A stretch of DNA of 42,618 nt, from positions 1-42,618 of the forward strand of contig JAJTED010000028.1 in NCBI GenBank assembly GCA_021300535.1. Direction: 5' to 3'. Below, one piece after another: positions 19,813 to 40,211 of this stretch. The notes under the pieces were generated by a model, which saw nothing but the letters and a program-made list of their open reading frames with translations, was not told where the DNA came from and made no database searches. A program made the translations under genes and the position numbers. This DNA comes from Planctomycetaceae bacterium. GTDB taxonomy: Bacteria > Planctomycetota > Planctomycetia > Pirellulales > UBA1268. Positions within the stretch are counted from its first letter, which is position 1, and each line of letters begins with the position of its first letter.

Positions 19813-19974
19813 CCAAAAAGCCCCGGGTGGAAACCCGGGGACACCGGGATTGAAGGCCGCCCCGCCGTTCATGCCGCACGACGGCAGGTGATTCTCGCGC
19901 CCAAAACCACATCGCATGGCACGCGGGAAGGCATGCCACCCGGAGTCCCCCGGCTTCCGCCGGGGGCTTTTTGT
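19813..19974 (+). repeat. Near-complete 162-bp dispersed repeat unit
   Basis: Full unit in the orientation left hairpin, core, right hairpin. The left hairpin (19821-19828 with 19833-19840, loop GGAA) is preceded by AAAAAG; on the minus strand this is a hairpin followed by CTTTTT. The right hairpin is 19947-19954 with 19959-19966 (loop TTCC) followed by CTTTTTGTG. The two ends are imperfect inverted repeats of about 36 bp. It lies between convergent phoU and the WD40 gene. Confidence 0.8.
19947..19972 (+). terminator. Intrinsic terminator of the pst-phoU operon
   Basis: An 8-bp perfect GC stem with a TTCC loop is followed directly by C and five T. It is the right end of the dispersed repeat and faces out of the operon, 187 bp after the phoU stop. 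Confidence 0.8.
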
Positions 19975-19991
19975 GGGTGTGGCGTGCAGGC

Positions 19992-20050
19992 CCAAGAAGC
20001 CCCGGGTGGAAACCCGGGGACACCGGGATTGAAGGCCGCCCCGCCGTCAT
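19992..20050 (-). repeat. Second left-half repeat, terminator for the WD40 gene
   Basis: A second copy of the left half, nearly identical to 19814-19872. The stem 20000-20007 / 20012-20019 followed on the minus strand by CTTCTTGG would terminate the minus-strand gene that stops at 20068. Together with 19947-19972 it makes the phoU/WD40 convergent gap a two-way terminator. Confidence 0.65.
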
Positions 20051-20067
20051 TTCGCTTGATCACCCGG

Positions 20068-21720
20068 CTATTTGGCGGGGGGGTGCCCGCGGGAGAACTC
20101 GGCTTCGGCCTTCCAGCGCTCCACGGCCTGGGCCGCATCGGCTTCGCGGGCCTTCGCGGCCTCGAACTCGGCGGTCGCCTCGTCGGCTGCCTTGCGGGCT
20201 GCGACCATCTGCGACTCCGCCGCTGCCAACGCGTCGGCGGCGGCCTTCGCCTTCTCGGCCGCGGTCTGCCCCGTGGCGGCCACCTCCGCGAGCACCTTTT
20301 CCGCGGCGCGGAGCCGGGACTCGATCTTCGGCGGATTCGTGTCGATCGTGCCTGCCGGCTTGCCGTCGGCCGCGGTGAACACGGTCAGGCCGCCTCCCCA
20401 GTCGCCGGCCAGAATCCGCGTGCCGTCGGCGGTTGCCGCCACGCGGGTGCCGACCTCCGGGAGGGCAGCCATTTCCCGCTCCAGCTGCCCGTCGGCCTTC
20501 CAGAGTTTCGCCCGCTTGTCGCGGCCCGTCGTCGCCAGTCGCCCGTCGGCCAGCCAGGTGACCGCCTCCGCGCCGCCGGCGTGCGCCGCCCAGGTCTTCA
20601 CCTGCTTCGCCTCCTTCGGATCCCAAAGCCGCACCGAGCCGTCGCCCGATGTGCTCGCGAGCACGGCGCCGTCGGGCCGCCACGCGACCGCCGTGATCAG
20701 CCCCGTGTGACCCTTGAGGGCGCCGGCGTCGCGGGTGCCACGGGTTTCCCACAGGTGCAGGTTGCCCGCCCGGTCGCCGGTGGCGAGGAGGGTCCCGTCG
20801 GGCGAGAACTCGAGGGCCGTGATCCAATCGGTGTGGCGGCGGATCTCCCCCGCCACGGCCCCGTCGGCCGTTGCCAGCAGCCGCACCACCTTCGCTGGTC
20901 CGCCGAGCGCCACGATCCGCTGGTCGGGCGAGATGTCGGCGGCCAAGACCTCGTCGAACTCGTCGCCCACTTCGGCGACGCGGGCCGCCGTGGCCATGTC
21001 CCAGACGACCACCCGGCCGCTCTTCGCCGCCACTCCACCGGCCGCGAGCAGCAGCTTCCCGCTGCGCGTGAAGCGAACGGCCTTCACGACACCCTCGGGA
21101 AACGGCAGCACGCCGAGGAAGTCGAGGCTGCCAGTGTGATAGAGCAGCACCTGCTTCCGGCCGCCGAGGGCGGCCGCCGCGCCGTGAGGCGAGGCGGCCA
21201 GGGCCGTGACGGTCGTCGGCCTGCGGCCCTGGGTCACGACATCGAGCGGCAGGCGGGGCGGCATCACGGGCGGCCCCTCGGGGACGGCCACGGCGCCGGC
21301 CGCAAGAGCGATGGCGGAGGTTTTCCGAGCCACGGGCTGGCCGCCCGCCTTCTCGATCGCCCCCGCCGCGATCCAGCGGCTGATTGCGTCAAGCGCCGCG
21401 TCGGGCAGCTTGTCGGACTCCGGCGGCATCTTCGGCTCGGAGGCATGCGTCACCAGCTGCCAGAGATAGGACCCGTCGGGATCGCCGGCCGCGATCACCG
21501 CGCCCGAACTGCCACCGGCCAGCGCCTGCCCGTGGCTGGTGAGGTCGAGCCCACCCTTCTTCTTGTCGGCGTTGTGGCAGCTGCAGCACTTCTCGCGGAA
21601 GATCGGCAGCACGTCGGCTTCGAACGTCGGTGGTGCGGCGGCGGCCGCGACCGTGGTCATCGTCAGCCAGAGGGCCATTGCCGGCCCAAATCGGCTCGCG
21701 GGCGGTGAGCGGTGCGACAT
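20068..21720 (-). CDS. Secreted planctomycete cytochrome-type (PSCyt1-like) WD40-repeat protein
   Basis: A 550-residue protein with a signal peptide ending near TVAAAAAPPTF. A c-type haem motif follows in REKCCSCHNADKKKGGLDL (CxxCH), and the segment up to SDKLPDAALDAISRWIAAGA is the planctomycete cytochrome-C-like domain. Residues about 150-430 hold WD40 repeats (TDWITALEFSPDGTLLATGD, GLITAVAWRPDGAVLAS, GSVRLWDPKEAKQVKTWAAH). The C-terminal 100 residues are an Ala/Glu-rich coiled coil. The frame is open upstream to 21840, but that part encodes only intergenic-repeat sequence, so ATG 21720 is used; ATG 21741 is an alternative inside the repeat. It is the last gene of the minus-strand block; 118 bp separate it from the DUF1553 gene. 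Haem attachment is inferred. The exact role of this family is not established. Confidence 0.82.
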   Translation of the reverse strand: MSHRSPPASRFGPAMALWLTMTTVAAAAAPPTFEADVLPIFREKCCSCHNADKKKGGLDLTSHGQALAGGSSGAVIAAGDPDGSYLWQLVTHASEPKMPPESDKLPDAALDAISRWIAAGAIEKAGGQPVARKTSAIALAAGAVAVPEGPPVMPPRLPLDVVTQGRRPTTVTALAASPHGAAAALGGRKQVLLYHTGSLDFLGVLPFPEGVVKAVRFTRSGKLLLAAGGVAAKSGRVVVWDMATAARVAEVGDEFDEVLAADISPDQRIVALGGPAKVVRLLATADGAVAGEIRRHTDWITALEFSPDGTLLATGDRAGNLHLWETRGTRDAGALKGHTGLITAVAWRPDGAVLASTSGDGSVRLWDPKEAKQVKTWAAHAGGAEAVTWLADGRLATTGRDKRAKLWKADGQLEREMAALPEVGTRVAATADGTRILAGDWGGGLTVFTAADGKPAGTIDTNPPKIESRLRAAEKVLAEVAATGQTAAEKAKAAADALAAAESQMVAARKAADEATAEFEAAKAREADAAQAVERWKAEAEFSRGHPPAK

Positions 21721-21840
21721 GGATGGCGGGGTGGTGTTCATGGCCGGAGTCCCCGGGCTTCCGCCCGGGGCTTGTTGAGAGAGGGATGCGTCATGTCGGC
21801 CAAGAAGCACCCGGCGGAAGCCGGGAGACACCGGGTGCAA
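21719..21840. repeat. Two half copies of the dispersed repeat, tail to tail
   Basis: A plus-oriented half unit (21719-21777, hairpin around GGGCTTCCGCCC, then CTTGTTG) is followed by a diverged minus-oriented half (about 21800-21838). The latter has a stem 21810-21815 / 21820-21825 followed on the minus strand by CTTCTTGG, a plausible terminator for the DUF1553 gene stopping at 21841. This fills the whole gap between the two minus-strand genes. Confidence 0.65.
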
Positions 21841-24324
21841 TCAGTGATTGAAGATGAACTCGGGGGAGTTGAGCAGGGCCCAGAAGACGTCTTCCAGGGC
21901 CTGTTTGCGATCGGTGCTGTCGAGGACGGTGAGCAGCGTCTCGATCCGCTCCCGCTCCGTCGGCATGCGGCCGTTGCACCGCAAGAACAGCTCGTCGATG
22001 ATCGCGCCCGGCGTGCGGCCCTCCGCAAGCCGCCGCCCGACGAGCCCTCCCTGCCGGATTCGCTCATTGGCCACGTCGCCGTTGAGCAGATGGAGCGCCT
22101 GCGACAGGCTCGGGTCCATGCGGACGGCGCAGCTACAGACATCTTCGCGGGTGGCGCGACCGAAGGTGGTGAGGAAGTAGTTCGTCGTCCGGCCGTCGGC
22201 CATCTGCACCGCACGGGCGCCCAGTGGCAGCCCGGGGAACTTGTTCTTCGTGTCCGTCACCTGGGCGAGGGTGTCCAGCAGCACCTCCGCCCGCTGGCGG
22301 CGGATGGCGGCGTGGGAGAAGTTCGTCTCGTCGAGCCGGTTGGTGTCGTTGGTCGCGAAGGACCGCTGGTAGGTGCGCGACGTGACGATGTCGCGAACGA
22401 GGCCGCGGAAGTCCCAGCCGGAGGTGGCGAACCGCCGTCCGAGTTCCTCCAGCAGCGGGCCGTTGACCGGCGGGTTGCTGATGCGGGCGTCGTCGGGCTC
22501 GTGCACGATGCCGCGGCCGAAGAAGTGCGTCCAGGCGATGTTGGCGACGTGCTTCGCGAAGAACGGGTTGTCGGCGGACGTGATCCAGGCCGCCAGCGCC
22601 TCGCGGCGGTCGCGGTTGGCCACCTTCGGCGTCTCGCCGCCGAGGAACTTGGGCACCGCAGGCTTGCCCTTGACCGGATGCTGCATCTCGCCGCCGCCCG
22701 AGTCGAACACGATCTGCTCCCGCGGGTCGGCACCCTTCTTGCGGCCGATCTGGGCGAAGAAGGCGGCGAAGCCGTAGTAGTCGTCCATCGTCCAGCGGTC
22801 GAAGGGGTGGTTGTGGCACTGGGCGCACTGGATGCGCATGCCGAGGAAGGCCTGGGCCACGTTCTCCGCGATCTTGAGCGTGTTGCGCTCGAGCTGGAAG
22901 TAGTTGGTGGGCGGGTTGTCGAACGTGCCGCCGGTGGCCGTGAGCAGGTCGCGAACCATGCGGTCGATCGGCTCGTTGGCCGCGATCCGCCGGTCGAGCC
23001 ACTGGTGGTAGAGGAGCGCCGCTTTGGGACTCACATCGTTGCCCTGGGATCGGATCTGGAGGATCTCGGCCCAGCGCATGACCCACAACTCGACGAACTC
23101 CTTGCGGGCCATCAGCTCGTCGATCGCCCGCCGGCGCTTGTCGGGGGCGGAGTCGGCGAGGAACCGGGCCCGCTCATCGGGCGTGGGGAGGAGCCCGACG
23201 AGGTCGAGAGTGACCCGGCGCAGGAAGGCCTCGTCGTCGCAGACCGGCGACGGGGCGATCCGCAGACTGGCGAGCTTGGCGTTGACGAGGCTGTCGATCG
23301 TCCTGGCGCCCTCCGTCGCCCCGGGGAGGTCGTGCTCCGTGGGAAATTGGAAGGCGAGGTCCTTGGGAATGACCACCATCGGCACGCCCACGGTGATCGT
23401 GTCGTAGCGGGCCATGAGAAAGGCCTCGCCGCGGACGCCGCTCGTGACCGTCCCCGCAGGCGAGACCTTTGCCGACCGGTCGTTGTTGGTGCCGTACCAG
23501 GCGAGGTCGGTGACGTCGCGGTCGGTGCCGTCGCTGAACCGGGCCACCGCCACGACCTGCTGTGTCGCGGCCTCACCCTCGATCAAGGCGGATGGCGGAT
23601 AGAGGTCGAGGCCCACCAGTTGCGGCACGCTGACGGCGGGGTCGGGGCCGGGATCGTCGGCCGCGCCGGCCGCGATCCAGCGGACGAGCCGGTCGGCGAG
23701 GTCGTCGTCCGCGGCGAACCGCTTGCCGCCGGTGTGCGGCACGCCGCCGGTGGCCTTGAGCAACAGCAGGCTCTCCTCCGGGTGCGCCAGGTCGATCCGC
23801 CGGCCGGGCAGTTCGCGGGTGATGCGGTGGTGGTCGCCGGACGGGTCGAAGCCGAAGAGCGAGAGGCGGAAGCCGTCCTTGCCGCGGGCGGCACCGTGAC
23901 AGCTGCCCATGTTGCAGCCCGCGCGGGCGAAGACCGGCATCACGTCGAGGCGGAACGACAGCGGCGGATCGGACGAGGCCGAGACCACCCGCAGCGGCAA
24001 CTCGCGGACGTGTCCGGCCACGGCGACCCGCAGCGTCGCGTCGCCGTCGGCGAGCGGGCGGAGGACGACGCGGGCGCCATCGCGGTCGATCGCGGCGAAC
24101 GTCGCGTCGCTTGCGGCGACCTCCGCCGTCGCGGTGACGTCGAACGTCCGCCCGTCGGCGGCCCGGCCCTGCACGATGAGCCGCTGGCGGTCGCGGGCCG
24201 AGTCGAGCCGGACCTGCGGAGGATAGACCTCGATGTTCACCAGGTCCGCCGCATCGGACGCCGCCGCCAGCGTCAGCCAGCCGACTGCCACGGCCTGCAA
24301 GATCGTGCGTGCGGTCCGACTCAT
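21841..24324 (-). CDS. Planctomycete DUF1549/DUF1553 (PSD1-type) secreted protein with cytochrome motifs
   Basis: An 827-residue secreted protein of a family greatly expanded in Planctomycetes. A signal peptide ends near AAASDAADL. A bacterial-Ig-like segment follows. Then comes the planctomycete cytochrome-like motif GCNMGSCHGAARGKDGFRLS, a second Ig-like segment (VVAVARFSDGTDRDVTDLAW), the DUF1549 domain (DEAFLRRVTLDLVGLLPTPD) ending in RIQCAQCHNHPFDRW with another CxxCH, and the DUF1553 domain to the C-terminus (NIAWTHFFGRGIVHEPDD, RQRAEVLLDTLAQVT, LLNSPEFIFNH). Its ATG overlaps the stop of the upstream PPC gene by 4 nt, so the two are translationally coupled. Haem binding and a role in breaking down polymers are often proposed for the family but not shown here. 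Confidence 0.9.
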   Translation of the reverse strand: MSRTARTILQAVAVGWLTLAAASDAADLVNIEVYPPQVRLDSARDRQRLIVQGRAADGRTFDVTATAEVAASDATFAAIDRDGARVVLRPLADGDATLRVAVAGHVRELPLRVVSASSDPPLSFRLDVMPVFARAGCNMGSCHGAARGKDGFRLSLFGFDPSGDHHRITRELPGRRIDLAHPEESLLLLKATGGVPHTGGKRFAADDDLADRLVRWIAAGAADDPGPDPAVSVPQLVGLDLYPPSALIEGEAATQQVVAVARFSDGTDRDVTDLAWYGTNNDRSAKVSPAGTVTSGVRGEAFLMARYDTITVGVPMVVIPKDLAFQFPTEHDLPGATEGARTIDSLVNAKLASLRIAPSPVCDDEAFLRRVTLDLVGLLPTPDERARFLADSAPDKRRRAIDELMARKEFVELWVMRWAEILQIRSQGNDVSPKAALLYHQWLDRRIAANEPIDRMVRDLLTATGGTFDNPPTNYFQLERNTLKIAENVAQAFLGMRIQCAQCHNHPFDRWTMDDYYGFAAFFAQIGRKKGADPREQIVFDSGGGEMQHPVKGKPAVPKFLGGETPKVANRDRREALAAWITSADNPFFAKHVANIAWTHFFGRGIVHEPDDARISNPPVNGPLLEELGRRFATSGWDFRGLVRDIVTSRTYQRSFATNDTNRLDETNFSHAAIRRQRAEVLLDTLAQVTDTKNKFPGLPLGARAVQMADGRTTNYFLTTFGRATREDVCSCAVRMDPSLSQALHLLNGDVANERIRQGGLVGRRLAEGRTPGAIIDELFLRCNGRMPTERERIETLLTVLDSTDRKQALEDVFWALLNSPEFIFNH

Positions 24325-26711
24325 GGCGGTGCTTCCTTGTCGGGCAGCGGCTTGTCGATCCGCAGCTGCGTGGGCGGCATGTTGTGCACCATCCAGGCAT
24401 CGCCCTGCGGGATCTGCACCTGGCAGAACACGTTCGCGTGCTGGCCCGGCGGCGCGTCGCCCCCGACCTTCACGGGAAACACGAGTTGGGTGGCGTCGGC
24501 CGTCAGTTCGAGTTCCGGCGACTCCGTCTTCGCCGGCAGGCCGAGCAGTTTTGCCTTGGCCACGCCGCTGAACGTGGCCGGTTTCTTCACCGTCCACACG
24601 AGCCGTATTTCCTGGCCCTGCTCCGCCGTCGCCTTGTCCGCCGCCATTTCGACGACCGGCTCCGCGACCTGCAATCGCACGAGCCGGCTCGAGACCCAGG
24701 TCGTCTCGTCGTCTCGAGCCCGGCGGTTGCCCTGCGACGCTGCGTCACCGTTGTCGAGTCCCGTCGCCGTGACCACCACCTGCCAATCGGCGATGGGGGC
24801 GTCGGGCGTGGCGCTCACTTGGTAGACGGCCTCCGCCTGATCGGCGGGAACCTCGACATTCACCGCCGCGTTGACTCCGGGCGGCTTGAAGGGAAACGCG
24901 AGCCGCACCCGGCCCGTGAATCCGTCGCGCCGCTCGACCCGCACCCTGAGGTCCAGCACACCGCGCCGGACCAGCGGCACCGGCGGCGGCTCCACCTCGA
25001 TGCGAACGGGAGCCTCCTCGACGACGGCGACGGGCAGCCGATCACTGGTGCTCGTGCGGTAGGCGGTGTTGTTCGGCGGGCCGAGGACGACCTCCGTCCG
25101 TTGTCGCAGCGTTCCCAGTGGCCGGCCTCCCTCCGCCGCGAGGAGCAGCACTTCCGCGCAACTCGTGGCGGGATCCGCATCGGTGGCGGCGGTGAAGACC
25201 GCCATGGTGCCGGGGGCATTGGGGGCCGCGATCGGCGCCTCGGCCGACACACCGGCCGGGAGCCCGGCGAAGGCCAGCTTCACGGGACCGTCGAACTCGG
25301 ATCGGGCCGTGTTGAACACGAGCGCCGCCCGCCCGCCCCGGGGCACTGCGGCGACGAGCCGCTCCTGCGAGTTGGCCCGCGCCGGGGGCACCGCGGCGGT
25401 CACCTCCGCCGCGGCCGGCTCGATCTCCAGCCAGTAGCCGTATTCCGGTCCCGCGCGGCGCAGGTGCTCGTGGACGCGGAGCAGGAACGTGCCCTGCTCG
25501 GGGGTCGTCACGCGGAGCAGGCTGTCGGGGCCTTCGGCATCGTCGTTGCCCGTAAGCCGCTCGCGCTTGTCGTCGTCGCGGTAAGCGTTGACAACCACGT
25601 CGATCGGCGAACCGAGCTGCCGCGCCCAGGCGCGGACGTTCCACACGCTCCCCTTGGCGGCCGCCACGCGGATCCAGTCCACGTCCGCGGCGGTGTTCAT
25701 GCGGCCGAGCACGCCGGCGGGGGCCGCGACGGGCGCGGCTTTGGCAGGCGCGTCGTTCGGCTCTGCCTCGTCGGTTCTCGGCAGCGGAGTCAGTCGCAGG
25801 GGCACCGTCACGGGTGAAGCCGCGCCGTTCCGCATTGGCGTCATCTCCGCGATCCCGGCCAGCGGCACGTTCATGGGCAGTGTGATCGTCTGGCGGAACG
25901 GTCCGGCGGGGTCGCCCAGCCATTCGACCTCCAGCTGCGTGCCCGGCCGGCCCGCCGGCGGCCAGGCGAGGTGCGGCACGGGAAAGTCGCCGACATGGAG
26001 TCGATAGACGCAGTCATCGTTGCCGCCGAACGCGGTTTCCCGCACGCGGACGACGTAGTCTCCGGCGGCGGGCACCACCGTGGAGAGCATCGCGTCCTGC
26101 CCGAGCAGCGGATGGTCATCGCAGGCCGCGACCACGAAGCCCTTGGCGTCGACGATCTCCAGGTGCGGGTCGAACATCGTCTGATCGAGCCGAATCGCCT
26201 CGATGGCGACGGAGAGCCGGCCGCCCGCCGGCAGGGCGACCCTGAAGCAATCGACGTCCTCGGCCGTGACGACGCCCGTGACCGTGCCGGCGAGCGTCAC
26301 CGGGTGGGCCGTGGCGAAGTCGTTGTTGGGCTCGGCCTCCGCCACCTGGGCGAAGCCGCCGACACGGAACGTGCGCAGTTCGGAGAGCCCAGCGGCCGTG
26401 CGGATCCGCACGCGGTGGCCGCCCAGCGGGCAGTCGGCGGGAATCCGCAGCGTGGCCTTCACGATTCCCGGCCCGACCTGCTCGAGGGCGGCGACGGGGA
26501 TCGCGCCGTCCTCGAAGCACACCTCCCGGGTCGCGGCGAGATCGCGGCCGCGAAACTCGACCGCGAGTTCGGCCCCGCGCGGGCCGCCGGGCGGCTGGAT
26601 GCGATCGATCACCGGCGCGGCGGCCGCGGGCGCGACTGCTGCGAGCGCGACGATCAGCCAGCCGCCGGCGCGGCGTCGGCACGGAGGCTGGGTGGCGGGG
26701 TGCATGGGCAT
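24321..26711 (-). CDS. Secreted PPC-domain protein
   Basis: A 796-residue exported protein with no catalytic domain that I recognise. The signal peptide covers about residues 1-32. An IPT/TIG-like beta domain follows (PVIDRIQPPGGPRGAELAVE). Two pre-peptidase C-terminal (PPC) domains are marked by the motif EAEPNNDFATAHPV with DVDCFRVALPAGGRLSV (about 125-240) and by DEAEPNDAPAKAA with DVDWIRVAAAKGS (about 315-440). The rest is beta-rich, with Ig-like segments. Such proteins usually accompany DUF1501 and DUF1553 genes in Planctomycetes, as here. It starts 31 bp after the DUF1501 gene and overlaps the next gene by 4 nt. Probably an extracellular or surface binding protein (inference). Confidence 0.82.
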   Translation of the reverse strand: MPMHPATQPPCRRRAGGWLIVALAAVAPAAAAPVIDRIQPPGGPRGAELAVEFRGRDLAATREVCFEDGAIPVAALEQVGPGIVKATLRIPADCPLGGHRVRIRTAAGLSELRTFRVGGFAQVAEAEPNNDFATAHPVTLAGTVTGVVTAEDVDCFRVALPAGGRLSVAIEAIRLDQTMFDPHLEIVDAKGFVVAACDDHPLLGQDAMLSTVVPAAGDYVVRVRETAFGGNDDCVYRLHVGDFPVPHLAWPPAGRPGTQLEVEWLGDPAGPFRQTITLPMNVPLAGIAEMTPMRNGAASPVTVPLRLTPLPRTDEAEPNDAPAKAAPVAAPAGVLGRMNTAADVDWIRVAAAKGSVWNVRAWARQLGSPIDVVVNAYRDDDKRERLTGNDDAEGPDSLLRVTTPEQGTFLLRVHEHLRRAGPEYGYWLEIEPAAAEVTAAVPPARANSQERLVAAVPRGGRAALVFNTARSEFDGPVKLAFAGLPAGVSAEAPIAAPNAPGTMAVFTAATDADPATSCAEVLLLAAEGGRPLGTLRQRTEVVLGPPNNTAYRTSTSDRLPVAVVEEAPVRIEVEPPPVPLVRRGVLDLRVRVERRDGFTGRVRLAFPFKPPGVNAAVNVEVPADQAEAVYQVSATPDAPIADWQVVVTATGLDNGDAASQGNRRARDDETTWVSSRLVRLQVAEPVVEMAADKATAEQGQEIRLVWTVKKPATFSGVAKAKLLGLPAKTESPELELTADATQLVFPVKVGGDAPPGQHANVFCQVQIPQGDAWMVHNMPPTQLRIDKPLPDKEAPP

Positions 26712-26742
26712 GACGAAACCGCTGGGCTCGGGGAACGTCGCA

Positions 26743-28050
26743 TCAGGCCAGCAGGTCCTTCCGCACGGTGCCGTCGTCGACGATCTCCACCGGACGGTTG
26801 CCCGGGGCCATCAGTTCCTTGTCGGCGACGATCCCGAGGCAGTGGTAGACGGTGGTGGCGAGGTCGGCGACGGAGAGCGGACTGTCCGCCGGCTCGGCCG
26901 CGATCGTGTCGGACGCGCCGTAGACCTGCCCGCGCTTGATGCCGCCGCCGGCGAGCACCACGCTGAAGACCTTCGGCCAGTGGTCGCGGCCGGCGTCGGC
27001 GTTGATCCGTGGCGTGCGGCCGAACTCGCTCGACGCCATGACGAGCGTCGAGTCGAGGAGCCCGCGGCGATCGAGGTCGGTGATCAGCGCGGCGAACGCC
27101 TGGTCGAACGGCGGGAGCGTGTTCGTGATCCCGTCGCGGATTTTGCCGTGCATGTCCCAGCCGCCGTAGGAGAGCGTCACGAACCGCACGCCCGCCTCCA
27201 CGAGCCGTCGCGCCAGGAGCATCCGCTGCCCGGCCTGGTTCCGGCCGTACTCGTCCTTGATGGCATCGGGCTCGGCCTTGATGTCGAAGGCGGCCCGGGC
27301 CTCGGCCGAACTGACCAGCGCGTAGGCCCGCTCGTAGAACGCGTCCATCGCCGCCACGGCGCCGGCGTCCTCGAGCCGTTGGAAGTGGCGGCCCACCGCC
27401 TCGCGGAGCTGTTGCCGCTTGGCGAACCGTTCGGCGTCCACGCCGCCGGGCAGGGCGAGATCGCGGACCGTAAAGCCGCCGTCGGCAGGGTCGGAGCCAA
27501 GCACGAAGGGCCCGAACGCGCTGCCCAGATAGCCGGCCCCCGCATCCGGGGCCGGGAGGGTCGGCACGCATACGTACGGCGGCAGGTTGGCCCGCGGCCC
27601 GAGTTCGTGCGCCACCACGCTGCCAAAGCTGGGGAATGTGAGGGCCGGGCTCGGTCGGTAGCCCGTGAACATGTTGTGGGTGCCGCGCTCGTGGGCCGCC
27701 TCTCCGTGGGTCATCGACCGCACGACCGTGATCTTGTCGGCGACCTGCGCCGTCTTCACGAGCTTCTCGCTGAACTGCACGCCCGTCAGCTTCGTGTCGA
27801 TCGCTGACAAGTCGCCGCGATACTCGACCGGCACCAGTGGCTTGGGGTCGAACGTCTCCTGCTGGGCCCAGCCGCCGGGGAGCCAGATGTGGATCACGCT
27901 CTTCGCGGTGCCGACAAAGTGGTCAAACGATTTCAGGTCTGCCCGCGCCGCCTGGAGGCGAAACAGGCCGCCGAGCGAGAGGCCGAGGCCGGTGAGCGAG
28001 CCGACGTGCAGGAACTCACGCCGCGACGAGAACCCCAAGGCGTGTGGCAT
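26743..28050 (-). CDS. DUF1501 family protein with Tat-type signal
   Basis: A 435-residue DUF1501 protein, a sulfatase/alkaline-phosphatase-fold relative abundant in Planctomycetes. The N-terminus SSRREFLHVGSLTGLGLSLG carries a twin-arginine motif followed by a hydrophobic stretch, so export by Tat is likely. Family landmarks are SVIHIWLPGGWAQQETFDPK, VVRSMTHGEAAHERGTHNMF, YGGWDMHGKIRDG and SEFGRTPRINADAGRDHW. It is the first gene of the four-gene minus-strand block, so the promoter should lie in 28051-28230. The substrate and reaction are unknown for this family. Confidence 0.9.
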   Translation of the reverse strand: MPHALGFSSRREFLHVGSLTGLGLSLGGLFRLQAARADLKSFDHFVGTAKSVIHIWLPGGWAQQETFDPKPLVPVEYRGDLSAIDTKLTGVQFSEKLVKTAQVADKITVVRSMTHGEAAHERGTHNMFTGYRPSPALTFPSFGSVVAHELGPRANLPPYVCVPTLPAPDAGAGYLGSAFGPFVLGSDPADGGFTVRDLALPGGVDAERFAKRQQLREAVGRHFQRLEDAGAVAAMDAFYERAYALVSSAEARAAFDIKAEPDAIKDEYGRNQAGQRMLLARRLVEAGVRFVTLSYGGWDMHGKIRDGITNTLPPFDQAFAALITDLDRRGLLDSTLVMASSEFGRTPRINADAGRDHWPKVFSVVLAGGGIKRGQVYGASDTIAAEPADSPLSVADLATTVYHCLGIVADKELMAPGNRPVEIVDDGTVRKDLLA

Positions 28051-28233
28051 GGCAAAACCTTTCGGGAACGGCCGAGGTGGAGAATACCGCCTGACCGGCC
28101 TGCCCCGCCACCACCAGGGTTTTCGTGGGTCGCGGGCATCCTACGCGGATCTTCTTCCCCCGAAGTGCCCGGCAGGCGGTTTTTGATGGTGCGCGTTCTC
28201 CAGTCTTGCTCTCAGGGTGACACGCTCGAACGG

Positions 28234-28397
28234 CACAAGAAGCCCCCGGCGGAAGCCGGGGGACTCCGGGTCGCATGCCTTCCCGGGTGCCATGCGATGG
28301 GGGGTTCGAGCCGGCAAATCATGCGCATTCATCCGGCATGGACGGCGGGGTGGTTCTCATGCCCGGAGTCCCCGGGTTTCCACCCGGAGCTTCTTGG
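28234..28397 (-). repeat. Complete 164-bp dispersed repeat unit
   Basis: The only notable content of the 460-bp gap between DUF1501 and uvrC. Left hairpin 28243-28250 / 28255-28262 with CTTCTT on its minus-strand side; right hairpin CCCCGGGT/ACCCGG followed by CTTCTTGG on the plus strand. The core includes GGTTCGAGCC. ACGG stands on both flanks (28229-28232 region and 28398 region), a possible 4-bp target duplication not seen at other copies. The left hairpin could end uvrC transcripts. Confidence 0.75.
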
Positions 28398-28510
28398 ACG
28401 GGTGGCGACACCGATTCCCAATGCGAAGGATCTGCAACAAACGTTCGCAAGCGGATTCCCGGAGCGGCGACGCTCTGCCGAGCCACTCTGCGCACTAGCA
28501 AAACAGGCGG

Positions 28511-29887
28511 TCATTCCTCGAACGTGCGGCGGCCCCGGAGGAGGTGGTGATAGTGCTGGGCGAAGCGATGGGCCTCGTCGCGGACGTATTCAAGGAGCCG
28601 CAAGGAATAGGAGTCGCGCGAGAGCCGCAGCGGCTCGCTCTTGCCCGGCAGGAAGACCTCCTCCTCCCGTTTTGCCAGCGAGATCACGCACGGGGCCGCG
28701 ATCCCCAGGCTCTCCAGCGCGTCGAGGGCGGCCGACAGCTGGCCCTTGCCGCCGTCCACCAGGAACACGTCGGGCAGCGCGGCCCCCTCGCGGACCAGGC
28801 GGGCGAACCGCCGCGACACGACCTCGTGGATGCTCTTGAAATCGTCGATGCCGTCCACCGTCTTGATGCGGTACCGCTTGTAGCCCGGCTTGAAGGGCAG
28901 GCCGTCGATGAACTGCACGAGGCTGGCGACGGTCTCGTTGCCGGCGAGGTGGGCGATGTCCACGCCCTCGATGACCCGCGGCGGCTTCGCCAGCCCGAGC
29001 ACCTTCTCCAGCCCCGCGAGCCCCTTCTTGGGATCGACGAGAAACACCTCCGGCTGGACGTGCTCCTCGAGGTCGCCGCGGTCGCCCAGCGTCTCCAGGA
29101 GCCGGATCTCGTCCCGCAGCCGGGCCGCCTTTTCGAACTCCAGCCGCCCGCTCGCCTCCAGCATCTCCTGTCGCATCTCGTCGAGCAGCCGCCGCTTGCC
29201 GCCTTCGAGGAACGTCTTCAGCCGGGCGATGTCCTTGCGGTACTCCTCCTTGGAGATCCGCAGGTTGCAGGGGGCCGTGCACTGGTCGATCGACGCCAGC
29301 AGGCAGGGCCGGAACCAGCGCCACTGCTCGTCGTCGGCGTCGATGTCGAGCGTGCAGGTGCGAAACTTGAAGATCCGCTGCAGGATGACGATCGCCCCGC
29401 GGAGGCTGCCCGCGCTCGTGAAGGGGCCGTAGAGCTTCACCCCCTTGTGCCGCGGCGTGCGGGTGAACTCGACCCGCGGAAAATCCTCGTGGGTCGTGAT
29501 CTGCAGGTACGGAAAGGTCTTGTCGTCCTTGAGGTCGCTGTTGAACCGCGGCTGCACGTCCTTGACGAGCCGGCTCTCGAGGAGCAGTGCGTCGACCTCG
29601 CTCTCCGCCTCCAGGTAGTCGATGTCGCGGATCTCGCGGACCAGGTCGGCGGTGCGGCGGTCCTCGGCGGCCGCCTTGAGGAAGTAAGAGCCGGCCCGGG
29701 CCCGCAGGTTCTTCGCCTTGCCGACGTAGATCACACGGCCCGCGGCGTCCTTCATCAGGTAGACGCCGGGGGTCTGCGGGAACGACCGCACCTTCTCCGC
29801 GGCGGCGGAGCGGTCGCGGGCGGCGGCGGCCGCGTCGGTGTCGGCGGGCAGCGTTTCGGCGGCGGGGGGCGGGTCACGGGCGTCCAT
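28511..29887 (-). CDS. uvrC: Excinuclease ABC subunit C, short form
   Basis: A 458-residue UvrC; E. coli UvrC is 610. The N-terminal GIY-YIG nuclease reads TPGVYLMKDAAGRVIYVGKA followed by KNLRARAGSYF. A four-Cys cluster follows (FRTCTLD ... RPCLLASIDQCTAPCNLRIS), then the UVR motif that binds UvrB (QEMLEASGRLEFEKAARLRD). The RNase H-like second nuclease has GVDIAHLAGNETVAS, PDVFLVDGGKGQL and RDEAHRFAQHYHH. The protein stops at RGRRTFEE, directly after that domain, so the tandem helix-hairpin-helix DNA-binding domain is absent. The end is clean with an ordinary stop and no HhH-like frame beyond, and the gene body is intact, so this looks like a natural short form. ATG 29887 was chosen; the frame upstream is non-homologous. 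Confidence 0.92.
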   Translation of the reverse strand: MDARDPPPAAETLPADTDAAAAARDRSAAAEKVRSFPQTPGVYLMKDAAGRVIYVGKAKNLRARAGSYFLKAAAEDRRTADLVREIRDIDYLEAESEVDALLLESRLVKDVQPRFNSDLKDDKTFPYLQITTHEDFPRVEFTRTPRHKGVKLYGPFTSAGSLRGAIVILQRIFKFRTCTLDIDADDEQWRWFRPCLLASIDQCTAPCNLRISKEEYRKDIARLKTFLEGGKRRLLDEMRQEMLEASGRLEFEKAARLRDEIRLLETLGDRGDLEEHVQPEVFLVDPKKGLAGLEKVLGLAKPPRVIEGVDIAHLAGNETVASLVQFIDGLPFKPGYKRYRIKTVDGIDDFKSIHEVVSRRFARLVREGAALPDVFLVDGGKGQLSAALDALESLGIAAPCVISLAKREEEVFLPGKSEPLRLSRDSYSLRLLEYVRDEAHRFAQHYHHLLRGRRTFEE

Positions 29888-30040
29888 GACCCGACATTCT
29901 ACGATCCTGCGGCCGAGGCCCCGGCGTTCGCCGTGTGGCATTGGGCGGAGGAGTTCAACAGAGCGTTGCCGTTGCATGGATCCAGCCGCGAATCGGGTTT
30001 TGCCCACCCGTGAACAGGGGTTCGGTCCTGTCACTGGTCC

Positions 30041-30201
30041 GAGAGTCCCCGGGCGGGAGCCCGGGGACTCCGGGCACGACAACCAGCCCGCCGCTCATGC
30101 CGGATGCATGCGGGTGGTTTGCTGGCTCGAGCCCCCATCGCATGGCACCCGGGAAGGCATGCGACCCGGAGTCCCCCGGCTTCCGCCGGGGGCTTCTTGT
30201 G
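30041..30201 (+). repeat. Near-complete 161-bp dispersed repeat unit
   Basis: Lies in the 405-bp gap between divergent uvrC and the exporter gene. The left end is a 10-bp stem (GTCCCCGGGC/GCCCGGGGAC) but lacks a clean T-tract. The right hairpin (about 30172-30191) is followed by CTTCTTGTG on the plus strand. The core matches the other units, including CATGGCACCCGGGAAGGCA. The rest of the gap shows no gene. Confidence 0.75.
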
Positions 30202-30292
30202 CCGTTCACGCGTGTCAAGCCGAGCGCAAGAATGGGGAGCGCGCAGCACCAAAATGGGAGCCCGGACCTCGCTTCCGGGGCGGCGACCGGTT

Positions 30293-32614
30293 ATGACAGC
30301 CCCGTCCCAGGACCGACCGATGCCCCCGCCAGCACACGCGCAGCGACGGCCCGCCTGGCGGGGCGGCCCCTGGTCCGACCCGTCGGCCGCGCGGCTGTTC
30401 CGCACGAGCATCGTCGCCTGCCTGCTCCTGGCCGCCGCCATGCCGTTCGTGGCGCGGACGGCGATCAGGATGCTCACCGCCGAATCGACGATCCCGTTCG
30501 ACTGGGTGCCGGCCGCGTTTCCCGCCCGCCGCGACTATGCCCGCTTCACCGCGGACTTCGGCAGCGGCGACATGGTCGTGGCGTCGTGGCCGGAATGCAC
30601 GCTCGACGCCTCGGCCGCCGACCGGTTCGCAGCCCGCGCCACCGGCCCGACCGCGCCACGGGATGCCGTCGGCCGGCCGTGGTTCGACGCCGTGACCACG
30701 GGCCGCACGGCGCTCGAGCGGCTGGTGGCGCCGCCGCTGGCGCTCGATCGCGCGGAGGCCGTGGATCGGCTGCGGGGCGTGGTCGTGGGGCCCGACGGCG
30801 AGCGGACCTGCGTGATCGTCGGCTTCACCGCGGCGGGCCTCGCCGATCGCCGCCGGTCGGTCGCCTGGATCCGCGACACGCTGCATGACATGGCCGGCGT
30901 CGCGGCCGACGACCTGCATCTGGGCGGCACGGTGATCGACAACGTGGCCGTGGACGCGGCCAGCGGCGAGAGCCTGCAGGTCTACGGCGGACCGGCGGCG
31001 GCGATCATCTTCGTGCTCACCTGGCTCGCCCTCCGCTCGCTGCGGTATGCGATCGTCGTGTTTCTGCTGGCGGTGACCTGCGTCGGGATCTCGTTCGCGT
31101 CGCTCGCGACCTGGGGCGATCGAATGAATCCGGTGCTCATCGTGATGCCGCTGCTCGTGCTCACGCTCGGCGTCTCCGGCGGAATCCATCTGGTGAACTA
31201 CCTCGTCGAGGAGTACCGCCGTGGCCCGGCCCGCGGCGCCGCCTGGCGGGCGGTGCGGGTGGCGTGGCTGCCGTGCAGCCTGTCGGCCGGCACGACGGCG
31301 GTGGGCCTCGGGTCGCTGGTCGTCAGCGAGCTGGAGCCGATCCGCACGTTCGGATTTCATGCGGCAGTCGGCGTGCTCGGCACGCTCATCGTGCTGTTTC
31401 TCGTGCTCCCCGGGATCTTCGCCCGCTGGCCCATCCGCCGGCGGCTCGACGTGGTCGCGGGGCCGGGGCCGGTGGAGCCGTGGGCCCGGGCGACGACGGG
31501 CCACGCCGCGGCGATCACCGGCGTGGCGATCGTGGCCCTGGCCGGCGCCGGGCTCGGCGTGCCCGGCATCCGCACGTCGGTCGGCATCGACACGCTGTTC
31601 ACGCCCGCCAGTCGGTTGATTCGCGACTACGCCTGGCTGGAACGCGAGATCGGTCCGCTCGTGCCGGTGGAGGTGATCCTGCGGTTTTCCGGCGACTCGG
31701 GCCTGCGGGCGGTGGAGCGGCTCGACGTCGTCAACGAGGTCGGCGCGGCGCTCCGCGGCCTGCCCCCCGTGGCCGGGGTCACGTCGGCGGCGTTGTTCGT
31801 GCCCGACAGGGACGACGCAACGGGGTTTCGAGCCGCGGCCCGCAAGGCCGTGATCGCCCGGAAGTTGGCAGCCAGCCTCTCGCAGCTCGCCGACATGCGG
31901 CTCGTGCGCATGGAAGGGGACGACCAGTTGTGGCGGGTCACGGCCCGCGTCTCCGCGCTCGCCGGCCTCGACTACGGCCGGGTGCTCGCGGAGGTCCGCG
32001 GCGTCGTGGAGCCGGTCGTGGCTCGCCACGGCGGCGGTGGCCGGGGGATCACGGCGGCCTACACCGGTGCCATGCCGCTCATCAACGCCATCCAGACCAC
32101 GCTCCTCCGCGACCTGTTCACCAGTTTTCTGTCGGCGCTCGGCGTGATCACGCTCGTCATGATGGTGGTCGAAGGGGGCGTGATGGCGGGGCTCGTGGCG
32201 ATGATCCCCAACATCTTCCCGATGGTGCTGCTCTTCGGGATCCTGGGCTGGACGCAGGCGGCCCTCGACATCGGCAGCGTGATGACGGCTTCGGTGGCCC
32301 TGGGCATGGCGGTGGACGGCACCTTCCACTTCCTCACGTTCTTCCGCCACGCGCTCCACGGCCGCGGCGGGCGGGCCGCGGCCGTCCGCGACGCCTATCG
32401 CCACTCGGCCGGGGCCCTCGTGCAAAGCGCGTTGGTTTGCGGGATCGGCATCCTGGCGTTCGCGGCCAGCCCGTTCGCGCCCACGCGGCGGTTCGCCTGG
32501 ATGCTGTCGCTGCTTGTGGTCGCGGCGCTCGTGGGCGACCTCGTCGTGCTGCCGGCCCTGCTCACCACCCGCGCCGGCCGGTGGTTTCGCCCCGCGCGGC
32601 GACCGCAGTCATGA
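30293..32614 (+). CDS. MMPL/RND-superfamily membrane exporter
   Basis: A 773-residue transporter with the duplicated RND-like layout. Half one has TM1 (about 40-60), an external loop of roughly 180 residues, then five membrane segments including VLTLGVSGGIHLVNYLVEEY. Half two repeats this, ending in MTASVALGMAVDGTFHFLTF, the TM4-like motif with an Asp. Total length and the Gly/Asp/His pattern fit MMPL-type and sterol-sensing-like RND proteins, which move lipids or hydrophobic compounds and usually need no adaptor. Substrate unknown. ATG 30293 is used because the open frame upstream to 30104 is repeat-derived; ATG 30320 is an alternative. It is not in an operon with neighbours. A GC hairpin follows it at 32687-32705. 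Confidence 0.85.
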   Translation: MTAPSQDRPMPPPAHAQRRPAWRGGPWSDPSAARLFRTSIVACLLLAAAMPFVARTAIRMLTAESTIPFDWVPAAFPARRDYARFTADFGSGDMVVASWPECTLDASAADRFAARATGPTAPRDAVGRPWFDAVTTGRTALERLVAPPLALDRAEAVDRLRGVVVGPDGERTCVIVGFTAAGLADRRRSVAWIRDTLHDMAGVAADDLHLGGTVIDNVAVDAASGESLQVYGGPAAAIIFVLTWLALRSLRYAIVVFLLAVTCVGISFASLATWGDRMNPVLIVMPLLVLTLGVSGGIHLVNYLVEEYRRGPARGAAWRAVRVAWLPCSLSAGTTAVGLGSLVVSELEPIRTFGFHAAVGVLGTLIVLFLVLPGIFARWPIRRRLDVVAGPGPVEPWARATTGHAAAITGVAIVALAGAGLGVPGIRTSVGIDTLFTPASRLIRDYAWLEREIGPLVPVEVILRFSGDSGLRAVERLDVVNEVGAALRGLPPVAGVTSAALFVPDRDDATGFRAAARKAVIARKLAASLSQLADMRLVRMEGDDQLWRVTARVSALAGLDYGRVLAEVRGVVEPVVARHGGGGRGITAAYTGAMPLINAIQTTLLRDLFTSFLSALGVITLVMMVVEGGVMAGLVAMIPNIFPMVLLFGILGWTQAALDIGSVMTASVALGMAVDGTFHFLTFFRHALHGRGGRAAAVRDAYRHSAGALVQSALVCGIGILAFAASPFAPTRRFAWMLSLLVVAALVGDLVVLPALLTTRAGRWFRPARRPQS

Positions 32615-32686
32615 GCCGCACCGCGTGCTCGAGCGAATCCGACTTTCGTGGACCACCGGCTCCGGGGGCGGCAAAAGTCTTCTCGC

Positions 32687-32705
32687 TGTGGCCGCGGCGG
32701 CCACA
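32687..32705. terminator. GC hairpin after the exporter gene
   Basis: TGTGGCCGC and GCGGCCACA form a 9-bp stem around one base, 73 bp after the exporter stop. No T-tract follows, so termination is only a possibility. The rest of 32615-32811 is GC-rich with a TAGAAT (-10-like) and no gene. Confidence 0.3.
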
Positions 32706-32811
32706 CGCTCGTCGAGCGTTCGCCGACCCCCTCGCCTCCCCGGCCCAATTTTCCCGGCAACGCTACATGGATGGAAAAAATCCCTAGAATGATCGGCGGA
32801 GGCACTGTGAC

Positions 32812-33711
32812 ATGAAGATCTTGATCGGCGTGGACGGCTCGGCGGCATCCCTCGACGCGGCCCGCCTCGCGGCGGCACTCGTCAACCCGGCCACCGACGG
32901 CGTGGCCGTGTACTTCTCGCCGTTGGAGCTGGAGAAGCGGCTGCCGGGCAGGAAGCGGGAGGTGGTGGATGGCGCCGCCGCCGCCCTGTTCGAAGAGATC
33001 TGCGGCCTGCTTCCCCGGGGCTGCGTCCGGCAGCCGGAGATGATCTGCAGCTCGAAGTCGGCGGCCGTCGGGATCCTGGAGTCGGCCGCCGAGTGGAAGG
33101 CCGACCTGGTCGTCGTCGGCGCCCGGGGGCACGGCTCGCTGGAGCGGCTCTTCCTCGGCAGCGTGTCGCGGGCGGTGGTGCATGGCGCGAATCTCCCCGT
33201 GCTCGTGGTCCGCGCGGCTCCGCCGGACGACCGTGGCCTGCGGGTGCTCGCCTGTCACCATCCAGCCAGCGCCGCCGCCATCGCCCGCGTCGCCGGCCAC
33301 CTTACCTGGCCGGGGAATGCCGTAGGGCAGGTGATCGCCGTGACCGAATCGATGCTGGCCGGGCCCGTGCCGGAATGGGTGCGGAATCGAGTCCGCGACC
33401 CCGCCGTCGCCGCGATGGCCGGGGCCTGGCAGGAGGAGCACGACGCCGAGGTGGCCGCGGTCGGCGGCCACCTGGAGGCCTTTCAAAAGACGCTGCCTGC
33501 CGGCTTTCAAAAGACCGCGCCGATCATCGCCGAGGGGAACCCCGGCGACCGCATCCTGGAGCGGGTCAAGGCCGACGGCATCGACCTCGTCGTGCTCGGC
33601 CGCACGCCCACCGATGCCCTCTCGCGGTGGCTGCTGGGCAGCACCTCCGAGGCCGTCCTCACCAACGCCCCCTGCAGCGTGCTGCTGGTGCCGGTGGAAA
33701 AGCCCGTCTGA
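32812..33711 (+). CDS. Tandem-domain universal stress protein
   Basis: A 299-residue protein of two fused Usp domains. Domain 1 starts MKILIGVDGSAASLDAARLA and has the ATP-binding loop VVVGARGHGSLERLFLGSVS (G-x2-G-x9-G-S), so it probably binds ATP. Domain 2 has LGRTPTDALSRWLLGSTSEA, which resembles the loop but lacks the second glycine, so nucleotide binding there is uncertain. A GGAGG stands 9 nt before the ATG. The gene is alone on this strand between the exporter and the repeat cluster at 33.7 kb. The role is stress-linked and not specific. Confidence 0.9.
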   Translation: MKILIGVDGSAASLDAARLAAALVNPATDGVAVYFSPLELEKRLPGRKREVVDGAAAALFEEICGLLPRGCVRQPEMICSSKSAAVGILESAAEWKADLVVVGARGHGSLERLFLGSVSRAVVHGANLPVLVVRAAPPDDRGLRVLACHHPASAAAIARVAGHLTWPGNAVGQVIAVTESMLAGPVPEWVRNRVRDPAVAAMAGAWQEEHDAEVAAVGGHLEAFQKTLPAGFQKTAPIIAEGNPGDRILERVKADGIDLVVLGRTPTDALSRWLLGSTSEAVLTNAPCSVLLVPVEKPV

Positions 33712-33712
33712 T

Positions 33713-33731
33713 CACCCGGGGCTTCTCGGGC
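33713..33731 (+). repeat. Short 3' fragment of the dispersed repeat
   Basis: CACCCGGGGCTTCTCGGG directly after the uspA stop codon matches the right end of the left-type arm (CACCCGGGGCTTCTTGG) with small changes. It lies immediately upstream of a full unit, so two copies sit in tandem here. Confidence 0.5.
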
Positions 33732-33734
33732 GCC

Positions 33735-33897
33735 CACAAGAAGCCCCCGGCGGAAGCCGGGGGACACCGGGTCACTCACCTCCCCGCTCACCATGCGGTG
33801 CGGTTTCGAACCGGGGAGTCACGTGCCGTCTTGCGGCGTGGATGGCGGGATGGTTTTCGTACCCGGAGTCCCCGGGTTTCCACCCGGGGCTTCTTGG
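33735..33897 (-). repeat. Complete 163-bp dispersed repeat unit
   Basis: Same arrangement as 28234-28397. Left hairpin follows CACAAGAAG; right hairpin 33870-33877 / 33882-33889 with loop TTCC is followed by CTTCTTGG and would terminate uspA transcripts. The core has GGTTTCGAACC. It fills most of the 222-bp convergent gap between uspA and kdsB. Confidence 0.8.
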
Positions 33898-33917
33898 ACC
33901 ACGTGCGCCATTCGCAC

Positions 33918-33947
33918 AAAAAGCCCCCGGCGGTCAGATGCCGCCGG
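33918..33947 (-). terminator. kdsB terminator built from gene end plus half a repeat
   Basis: On the minus strand a 7-bp stem (CCGGCGG at 33941-33947 with CCGCCGG at 33927-33933) encloses a 7-nt loop CATCTGA and is followed by GGGCTTTTT. The upstream arm is kdsB coding sequence and the loop contains the kdsB stop codon; the downstream arm and T-tract belong to a truncated copy of the dispersed repeat. Confidence 0.7.
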
Positions 33948-34734
33948 TCCCGGAACCGCGGCAGCGTTCCACGAAGGCGGCGTAGTCTCGCGGCGTGTCG
34001 ATGCCGCGGGCCGCATGGTCGATCGCGCCGGCCACGATCGGGATGCCGGCCTCCACCACCCGCAACTGCTCGAGGCTTTCGAGCGCCGCCAGCCGCGACT
34101 CGGGCAGGGCGTTCCAGCCTTCGAGCACGCCGCGCCGATAGGCGTAGAGGCCGACGTGCTGCCAGTAGAGCGGCGGCTCGGCCTGAAGCAGGGCCGGCGA
34201 CCAGTCGCGGGCCGCGGGCACGGCGGCCCGGCTGAAGTAGACCGCCCGCCAGGCATTCGCCACCGGGCCGCCCTCCGCGTGCCAGGGCGTGAGCACCGCC
34301 TTCACGGCGGCGGGATCGTGCAGATCCTCGTCACGCCGTAGGGGCGTGACGAGCGTGGCCACGCCGGCCTCGGGGCAGCGGTCGAGAAGGTCGATGGCCG
34401 CATCGATGGCCGATGCCGCGAGCTCCGGCTCGTCTCCCTGCACGTTGACGACGATGTCGGCCGCGGGCAGGCCGGGCAATGCTTCCACGATCCGGGCGGT
34501 GCCGCTGGTGCAATCCGGCGAGGTCATCACCGCGTGTCCGCCGCAGGCCTGCACCGCCGCGGCGATCTCCGCGCTGTCGGTGACCACGGCCACGTGGGTC
34601 GCCCGGCGGGCGCCGCGGGCGGCCCGCCAGGTGTGCTCGATCAGCGGCCGGCCCGTCTCGGCGAGCAGCATCTTGCGGGGCAGCCGCTGGCTGGAAAGGC
34701 GGGCGGGAATCGCGATCACGGCAGTGTCGGGCAT
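33934..34734 (-). CDS. kdsB: 3-deoxy-manno-octulosonate cytidylyltransferase
   Basis: A 266-residue enzyme that activates KDO as CMP-KDO for lipopolysaccharide core synthesis. The N-terminus VIAIPARLSSQRLPRKML is the CTP-binding signature. Later motifs are EHTWRAARGA, DIVVNVQGDEPELAAS (metal and CTP binding), VYFSRAAVPAARD, WQHVGLYAYRRGVLEGW and LESLEQLRVVEAGIPI. Length is close to E. coli KdsB (248). ATG 34734 precedes the first strand directly. It diverges from glmS across 81 bp. Its presence implies an outer membrane with KDO-containing LPS. Its stop codon lies in a terminator loop. Confidence 0.95.
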   Translation of the reverse strand: MPDTAVIAIPARLSSQRLPRKMLLAETGRPLIEHTWRAARGARRATHVAVVTDSAEIAAAVQACGGHAVMTSPDCTSGTARIVEALPGLPAADIVVNVQGDEPELAASAIDAAIDLLDRCPEAGVATLVTPLRRDEDLHDPAAVKAVLTPWHAEGGPVANAWRAVYFSRAAVPAARDWSPALLQAEPPLYWQHVGLYAYRRGVLEGWNALPESRLAALESLEQLRVVEAGIPIVAGAIDHAARGIDTPRDYAAFVERCRGSGTGGI

Positions 34735-34815
34735 GAGAGTCACCGGTGACGGAGCAGGAAAAGGTCGGTAGGATGATGATGGCGCGGCCGGTCGGATCAC
34801 GGAGGAGTTTTCCAC

Positions 34816-36764: not shown

Positions 36765-36801
36765 CCGTTGGTCCTGGGTTCGAGTCCCAGCGGCCCCATT
36801 T
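36765..36801 (+). repeat. tRNA 3'-end fragment, copy 1
   Basis: A 34-nt match to the 3' part of a tRNA: end of the anticodon stem (CCGTTGGTC), T stem-loop CTGGG-TTCGAGT-CCCAG, and acceptor strand CGGCCCC with A, then TTT. It resembles tRNA-Lys types, but the anticodon is missing so identity is uncertain. No 5' half (GGGGCCG) lies upstream, so it is not a functional tRNA. The same 37 bases recur at 40175-40211 with one mismatch. Confidence 0.75.
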
Positions 36802-40174: not shown

Positions 40175-40211
40175 CCGTTGGTCCTGGGTTCGAGCCCCAG
40201 CGGCCCCATTT
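40175..40211 (+). repeat. tRNA 3'-end fragment, copy 2
   Basis: Same 37 bases as 36765-36801 with one T-to-C change that still leaves a perfect T stem-loop (CTGGG-TTCGAGC-CCCAG). No matching 5' half precedes it. It ends 7 bp before the stop of the convergent btaA-like gene. The two copies are direct repeats 3410 bp apart. Confidence 0.75.

Follow-up and report, generated by a model that had tools for sequence, protein, structure and literature searches.

What is the repeated element of about 163 bp that occurs four times between the genes of a planctomycete contig, and what might move it? The stretch studied here, which we call the window, comprises 42,618 nucleotides from a Planctomycetaceae bacterium and is contig JAJTED010000028.1 (C22) of a 4,010,312-base, 197-contig assembly (GCA_021300535.1) that is 86% complete. 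The original prediction, made from the window alone, proposed a dispersed, non-autonomous family of mobile type for which no named family was known. The first part of this proposal agrees with the copy number across the genome and with the boundaries that the copies share. The second part is not supported, as the repeats fit the family of repetitive extragenic palindromes (REPs) and BIMEs, with a class 3 TnpA of their own. Because the one Y1 transposase gene (tnpA) in the assembly lies among copies and carries the class 3 Y----Q signature, we assign the repeats to this family and interpret the unit as an inverted REP dimer. We regard it as very probable that the 163-bp unit is a REP dimer, of the BIME or REPIN type, of a class 3 TnpA_Y1 'REPtron'.

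The repeat family and its hairpin ends

Re-examination of the window confirmed four units of about 163 bp, which are copies of one asymmetric unit and, as predicted, lie in both orientations. We call the two ends A and B. Two units have A on the left and B on the right (+ strand): 19813-19974, between the convergent genes 19101-19760 (+) and 20068-21678 (-), and 30041-30201, between the divergent genes 28511-29941 (-) and 30320-32614 (+). The other two have B on the left and A on the right (- strand): 28234-28397, between the tandem genes 26743-28050 (-) and 28511-29941 (-), and 33735-33897, between the convergent genes 32812-33711 (+) and 33934-36639 (-). Both ends consist of a GC-rich hairpin of 20 nt (8 pairs, 4-nt loop) that has a foot on its inner side and a tail on its outer side. 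All four units are complete foot-inside dimers.

The A hairpin is CCCCGGGTTTCCACCCGGGG, with CTTCTTGG as its commonest tail, and the B hairpin is CCCCCGGCTTCCGCCGGGGG, most commonly followed by CTTTTTGT. Among 294 ends, the tails are CTTTTTGT (102), CTTCTTGG (72), CTTCTTGT (38) and others, mostly of the form CTTYTTG. The feet of these ends are CGGAGT (153), CGGTGT (69) and others (72), and the 14 commonest do not include GTAG, GTGG or CGTC. Where two hairpins form a foot-inside pair spaced 110-140 nt, A is paired with B in 67 of 71 cases. The A end of unit 30041-30201 is without a CTT tail and was missed by the pattern used to find ends. An alignment of 74 units shows pairing retained in 99% of the pair cells of both end stems; double changes affect one pair of the A stem (8 cells) and two of the B stem (3 and 2 cells). 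For the structure as a whole, 18 cells are double-changed, compared with 7.1 in shuffles. Co-variation between foot and tail was absent from A ends (p=1.0), and the value for B ends (p=0.017) is uncorrected and is not relied on. The copies share sharp boundaries: in 67 of them, conservation stands at 1.70 bits just inside the B edge and 0.35 bits just beyond it, with corresponding values of 1.89 and 0.66 bits for the A edge.

The family extends well beyond the window. A degenerate pattern of foot, hairpin and CTT has 601 mismatch-free matches in the 4.01-Mb assembly, and the reversed pattern has none. An iterated profile search of the window and 80 other stretches of the same genome (81 sequences, 1.10 Mb) gave 349 nhmmer matches, which form 178 places, 82 of them longer than 140 bp. 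Sixty of the 80 stretches (773,000 bases) make up a non-aimed set, of which 59 were picked by contig number and one (C19) was aimed at a match. These contain 79 places (28 longer than 140 bp), i.e., 102 per Mb and 1.1% of bases, with at least one place in 31 of the 60 stretches, and extrapolate to about 410 places genome-wide. This density is probably low, because contigs already known to be rich in copies went into the aimed set and thus lie outside the 60 stretches.

The copies had been described as occurring only between genes. This is correct for 163 of the 178 places, which are not mostly within a called gene, but 15 (13 of the 79 in the 60 stretches) lie mostly inside one, many of them at one end of it; the genes were called by a simple codon-model gene finder of our own and are approximate. 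A largely extragenic location and a short palindromic hairpin in many copies are both properties of REPs, REPINs and BIMEs.

A probable class 3 transposase gene among the copies

The single match to Y1_Tnp in the assembly (PF01797, 27 bits, cut-off 23) is a Y1/HUH transposase gene, a 165-aa open reading frame on contig C177. In the 3.5-kb locus around it, four family hairpins come before the gene and four after it, i.e., a cognate Y1 transposase gene is flanked by the same repeats. The HUH motif of the protein is THVH, and its YVAELQ motif contains Y154 and Q159 of the Y----Q signature. H97, Y154 and Q159 are invariant in 14 aligned relatives, and H95 is nearly so. The published class 3 combination of HUH and Y----Q is therefore present, except for T in place of N; the class 3 description gives NHVH (PMC6006769). 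Membership in class 3 is suggested by the motif, the host, the flanking repeats and, in part of the copies, the CGGA foot.

Comparisons with named families and with structures place the protein more broadly. Its NCBIfam scores are under the cut-off both for IS200 (26.5 bits, cut-off 55) and for REP_Tyr (18.9 bits, cut-off 80), and no transposase came up when solved structures were searched by sequence. An AlphaFold2 model (pLDDT 81.3, pTM 0.73) had 24 Foldseek matches at E<=0.001, all of which are IS200/IS605-type transposases (ISDra2, IS608 and others) or the E. coli RAYT 4ER8. Because the query-normalised TM-scores are about 0.5, the model supports the fold class of TnpA but not the detail.

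Homologues of tnpA occur in 27 of the 79 genomes searched, our own included, and in 8 of 21 genomes of the same genus. The public genome collection yielded 226 confirmed stretches with homologues, of which 80 were kept. Of these 80 named records, 78 have titles that we take to denote planctomycetes, in part because of the lineages given for their genera, and the other two are called just 'bacterium'; the phylum assumed in the original prediction is therefore sound. In a tree, our gene and that of genome G029 form one group (92/79), while eight genes of the same genus fall into another, of 11 rows (95/75). These values are below the tool's mark for strong support, and the grouping was not used.

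In another genus of the same taxonomic family, three genomes have pattern matches (G028, 88; G044, 44; G037, 9), and among the 21 same-genus genomes 19 have none and two have one each. With a DNA query of 162 bp, several genomes of the same genus yielded short pieces that come mostly from the hairpin; G009 and G011, both of which have tnpA, gave 12 each. It would therefore overstate the case to call the repeat absent from the other members of the genus: the exact pattern is nearly absent, but short pieces occur in several genomes. Positions 10-190 of a G011 contig (C259) hold hairpin matches at a 36-bp period, i.e., single REPs in direct tandem.

Orthologous loci were compared for the gap that holds unit 33735-33897. 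With the unit, the gap between genes 32812-33711 and 33934-36639 measures 223 bp; between their orthologues it is 13, -26 and -4 bp in G018, G019 and G013. In G008, G011 and G001 it is 185, 130 and 162 bp, with no family match. Among the 35 same-genus loci examined, no family match was found at E 0.01, and a second window gene adjoined the first in only seven. For the genes of L136, the gap as judged by eye is about 130 bp, compared with 460 bp in our genome, and this pair was left out of the comparison.

Given such a transposase, a mechanism can be proposed. TnpA would bind the hairpins while the DNA is single-stranded, use the foot as a guide, and cut beside the hairpin. The CT of the tail would be the likely cut site, by analogy with TnpA_REP (PMC8266576). 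The dimer would then be copied or moved as single-stranded DNA, and copies would survive mainly outside promoter gaps.

It is important to emphasize that several observations weigh against assigning the repeats to a class 3 REP system. As regards the protein and its genome, the first HUH residue is T, not N, and another transposase may be missing from the assembly, because it is 86% complete. Neither G028 nor G044 has a tnpA match, despite their 88 and 44 pattern matches. Conversely, the hairpin around the tnpA of G037 is not dispersed, as its four matches are all at that locus; a general rule by which the hairpin flanking a class 3 gene is always dispersed fails in this genome. An identical perfect hairpin on both sides of the gene was found at only 10 of 93 tnpA loci, two of which are apparently duplicate records, and at 0 of 93 with shuffled flanks. 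As regards the repeats, 69 of the 294 ends have the CGGTGT foot, and double changes occur at 5 pairs of the complete structure, no more than in shuffles (5.0). Most of the 20 units that have no family neighbour still adjoin other repeated modules; the borders of the 163-bp unit may therefore mark junctions within a larger mosaic. Finally, the compared gaps without the element are not base-exact empty sites, and movement of the unit is an inference.

The probable replicating unit and its surroundings

If the repeats are REP dimers, the question arises of which dimer replicates. Among the pairs isolated from other ends, 16 are foot-outside, 15 foot-inside and 3 head-to-tail, in addition to 31 single ends and 50 larger groups. 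The spacing of isolated foot-inside pairs is 128-130 nt in 14 of 15 (186 nt in the other), while that of isolated foot-outside pairs ranges over 34-56 nt in 15 of 16 (101 nt in the other). Foot-inside pairs in G028 and G044, of the other genus, are also nearly fixed, at 86-87 nt in 8 of 9, and foot-outside pairs there vary from 37 to 71 nt; in G028 the commonest pairs are head-to-tail, with 14 at 156-158 nt.

The 55-nt ends were also compared in their identity to the consensus, leaving aside 51 ends near stretch edges. Identity is 0.902 for foot-inside pairs (26 ends), 0.839 for clusters (178), 0.825 for foot-outside pairs (28) and 0.653 for single ends (23), but units and clusters dominate the consensus, and the comparison is tilted in their favour. 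The difference between foot-inside and foot-outside ends has p=0.008. Inverted dimers are thus better conserved than singles, as is characteristic of REPs, REPINs and BIMEs, and this ranking parallels the doublet-over-singlet argument of Bertels and Rainey (PMC3116915).

Within the REP interpretation, we think that the foot-inside dimer, A-core-B with its fixed spacing, is probably the replicating unit, while foot-outside pairs, tandem arrays and single REPs would be by-products or decay products. It is unlikely that the mobile unit is instead a foot-outside dimer (the classical REPIN order) or a larger composite, with the 163-bp unit being the piece between neighbours in an array. The isolated foot-outside pairs do exist, the outer ends of most of the 15 listed lie near GCATGG/CCATGC (judged by eye), and many copies adjoin repeated flank modules, two of which end near CGCGCAnCAnCAAAA, as well as a 124-bp tandem module. 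However, this alternative has to contend with the varying foot-outside spacing, where foot-inside spacing is nearly fixed in two genera, and with the greater closeness of foot-inside ends to the consensus.

Several different sequences lie beyond the unit borders. Single-linkage grouping of up to 155 flanks gave groups of 59, 20, 18 and 11, and the remainder fell into 39 groups of one or two. In the group of 59, the 14 flanks listed run into another copy. The group of 20 is the 124-bp module (among the 14 listed), and the groups of 18 and 11 are two other modules. At about 7340-8720 of stretch L067 (contig C145), the module of about 124 bp runs in tandem for several consecutive periods, with further hairpins and one family hairpin per period. 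The two other modules lie outside A and B ends (in the window at 28179-28233 and 30202-30255, and in stretches L080, L085 and L086), and both stop near CGCGCAnCAnCAAAA. In the window, the module at 28179-28233 (-) lies outside the B end of unit 28234-28397 and ends in CGCACCATCAAAA; the same module lies outside the B end of unit 30041-30201 at 30202-30255 (+), its right edge being approximate. There are 30 occurrences of CGCGCAnCAnCAAAA, 24 of which have a family copy within 400 nt. This shared module end hints at a larger composite element.

The window also contains incomplete copies, which had been listed as half units. They are located as described, but some are better characterized otherwise. 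The piece at 21719-21840 (+), between tandem genes, is a two-ended, foot-outside dimer, with an A hairpin at 21751-21773 (+) and a B hairpin at 21805-21827 (-). The A-type half at 19992-20050 (-) forms a foot-outside pair with the B end at 19947-19969, i.e., a short array, and a B-type half with its hairpin at 38-60 lies at the window start (1-66, +). The pieces at 33713-33731 (A-type, +) and 33914-33933 (B-type, -) are remnants, each at the 3' end of one member of a convergent gene pair: within 33711-33934, the first lies just past the stop of gene 32812-33711, and the second abuts the stop codon of gene 33934-36639. Because both stops lie against REP remnants, insertions may have set the present C-termini of these genes. 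Elsewhere in the window, a 37-nt direct repeat (97%) at 36765-36801 and 40175-40211 looks like the 3' part of two candidate tRNA genes.

Transcription termination and known systems

The ends have the shape of intrinsic (Rho-independent) terminators, a GC-rich stem followed by a T-tract, and B ends in particular have an 8-bp GC-rich stem that is most often followed by CTTTTTG. The original prediction raised the possibility that the element is kept because its ends halt transcription heading out of it, insulating the genes on either side. We consider this decidedly unlikely as the reason for their retention, although the shape is as described and divergent gaps are under-occupied. In the 60 stretches, copies occupy 13 of the 66 convergent gaps, 16 of the 189 tandem ones and 4 of the 94 divergent ones (convergent vs divergent, p=0.003; tandem vs divergent, p=0.23), and in all 81 sequences 23 of 91, 40 of 273 and 9 of 134, respectively. 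However, harm to promoters explains the avoidance of divergent gaps equally well. In tandem gaps, 66 T-tracts run along the genes and 70 against them (p=0.80), and full units have the B end downstream in 23 cases vs 15 (p=0.26). Because T-tract direction is unbiased in tandem gaps, nothing shows that the copies are kept as insulators. Moreover, three orthologous convergent pairs have almost no gap.

Terminator scoring used perfect stems only. At the strict setting, 12 of 36 gene 3' ends with a copy are terminator-like, compared with 3 of 435 without, and the repeats account for most of the terminator-shaped hairpins at gene ends in the sample. At the other setting, the count with a copy is 15 of 34, and copy-less gene ends show no excess: 11 are terminator-like, against 12 on the opposite strand and 10 in shuffled sequence, each out of 247. 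No gene end was terminator-like in the same-genus loci (0 of 45). This lack of an excess of perfect hairpins with T-tracts downstream of genes suggests that the lineage ends transcripts by other means. Intrinsic terminators share with the repeats the GC-rich stem, 4-nt loop and T-rich tail, but the repeats differ in that they recur and form dimers, conserve a foot and show no preferred direction with respect to tandem genes. Copies may terminate transcription incidentally, and the terminator-like shape would be at most a side effect. A bolder idea, which we regard as unlikely, is that the transposase, through a transposition unit with its recognition feet pointing inward and spaced at a fixed distance, has seeded hundreds of bidirectional terminator-shaped hairpins. 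These would provide the genome with most of its intrinsic terminators and change the ends of neighbouring genes. If true, this would have happened in a lineage in which hairpin-plus-T terminators are otherwise not apparent at genes.

Two further explanations fare worse. A miniature inverted-repeat element moved by a conventional insertion-sequence (DDE-type) transposase through its imperfect terminal inverted repeats would fit the inverted ends, the sharp borders and the copies in both orientations. However, the ends are themselves hairpins with double changes and a HUH Y1 gene sits among the copies. In addition, target duplications of at least 4 nt are found in 3 of 20 testable units, compared with about 3.2 in a partner-shuffled control; lacking an excess, we rejected this explanation as very improbable. 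HUH enzymes are expected to leave no target duplication, and its lack is as expected of them. A structured RNA with a functional core, which the conserved units (mean column identity 81%) and the strong predicted fold of the consensus (computed without a shuffle control) might suggest, is the least probable explanation of all and is rejected as the principal one, as the two inner core hairpins keep only 74% and 92% of pair cells, with 5 and 0 double-changed cells in the 74 units, the long predicted fold follows from the inverted ends, and Rfam has no match in the window at the gathering threshold.

We return to the class 3 REP interpretation and compare it with published systems. Class 3 TnpA (Y----Q) is reported chiefly in Planctomycetes, Acidobacteria and Proteobacteria, where it is flanked by hairpins that have a CnGA foot and occur in high copy number. 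The description is based on a sample of 10 proteins, of which 5 lack conserved HUH or Y motifs (the sample was enlarged to 24 for the profile), and its repeats were described by manual inspection only; the authors suggest that class 3 may lie between insertion sequences and REP systems and call for experiments (PMC6006769). Our system shares the planctomycete host, the Y----Q signature, the high-copy flanking hairpins and, in CGGAGT copies, a CnGA-type foot. However, 69 of 222 CGGWGT feet read CGGT, and where the published structures are atypical, weaker and found by hand, ours combine GC-rich stems of 8 bp and T-rich tails with two types of end and an inward dimer whose spacing is nearly fixed at 129 nt (PMC6006769).

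With the REPINs and BIMEs of the GTAG superfamily, the repeats share inverted dimers, heterodimers, tandem arrays and decayed singles, as well as a mostly extragenic location and a dedicated Y1 transposase (PMC3116915, PMC3733652). The foot is CGGWGT, as opposed to the GTAG/GTGG or CGTC of known REP superfamilies, and by their foot the repeats are outside both the GTAG and the CGTC superfamily. The 163-bp unit is also longer than the 71-bp distance given for P. fluorescens GI doublets (PMC3116915, PMC3733652). Foot-inside (tail-to-tail, TT) dimers usually have variable spacers; here their spacing is fixed and that of foot-outside (head-to-head, HH) dimers varies, which is the opposite of this rule of thumb (PMC3733652). 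The repeats work like a REP/BIME system and, by most of the criteria tested, belong there. Among the papers listed by our literature search, we found none on these repeats in this lineage. As far as the literature compared goes, the inward dimer of fixed spacing, the strong stems and T-rich tails in a class 3 setting, and the size and anatomy of the family are new.

The inward, fixed-spacing dimer, present in two genera, is a concrete departure from the published rule for REP dimers. In a single genome, one class 3 gene was found alongside some 600 well-formed ends, which are of two types and form dimers whose geometry can be measured, and the substrate, the guide foot and the replicating unit are therefore directly testable.

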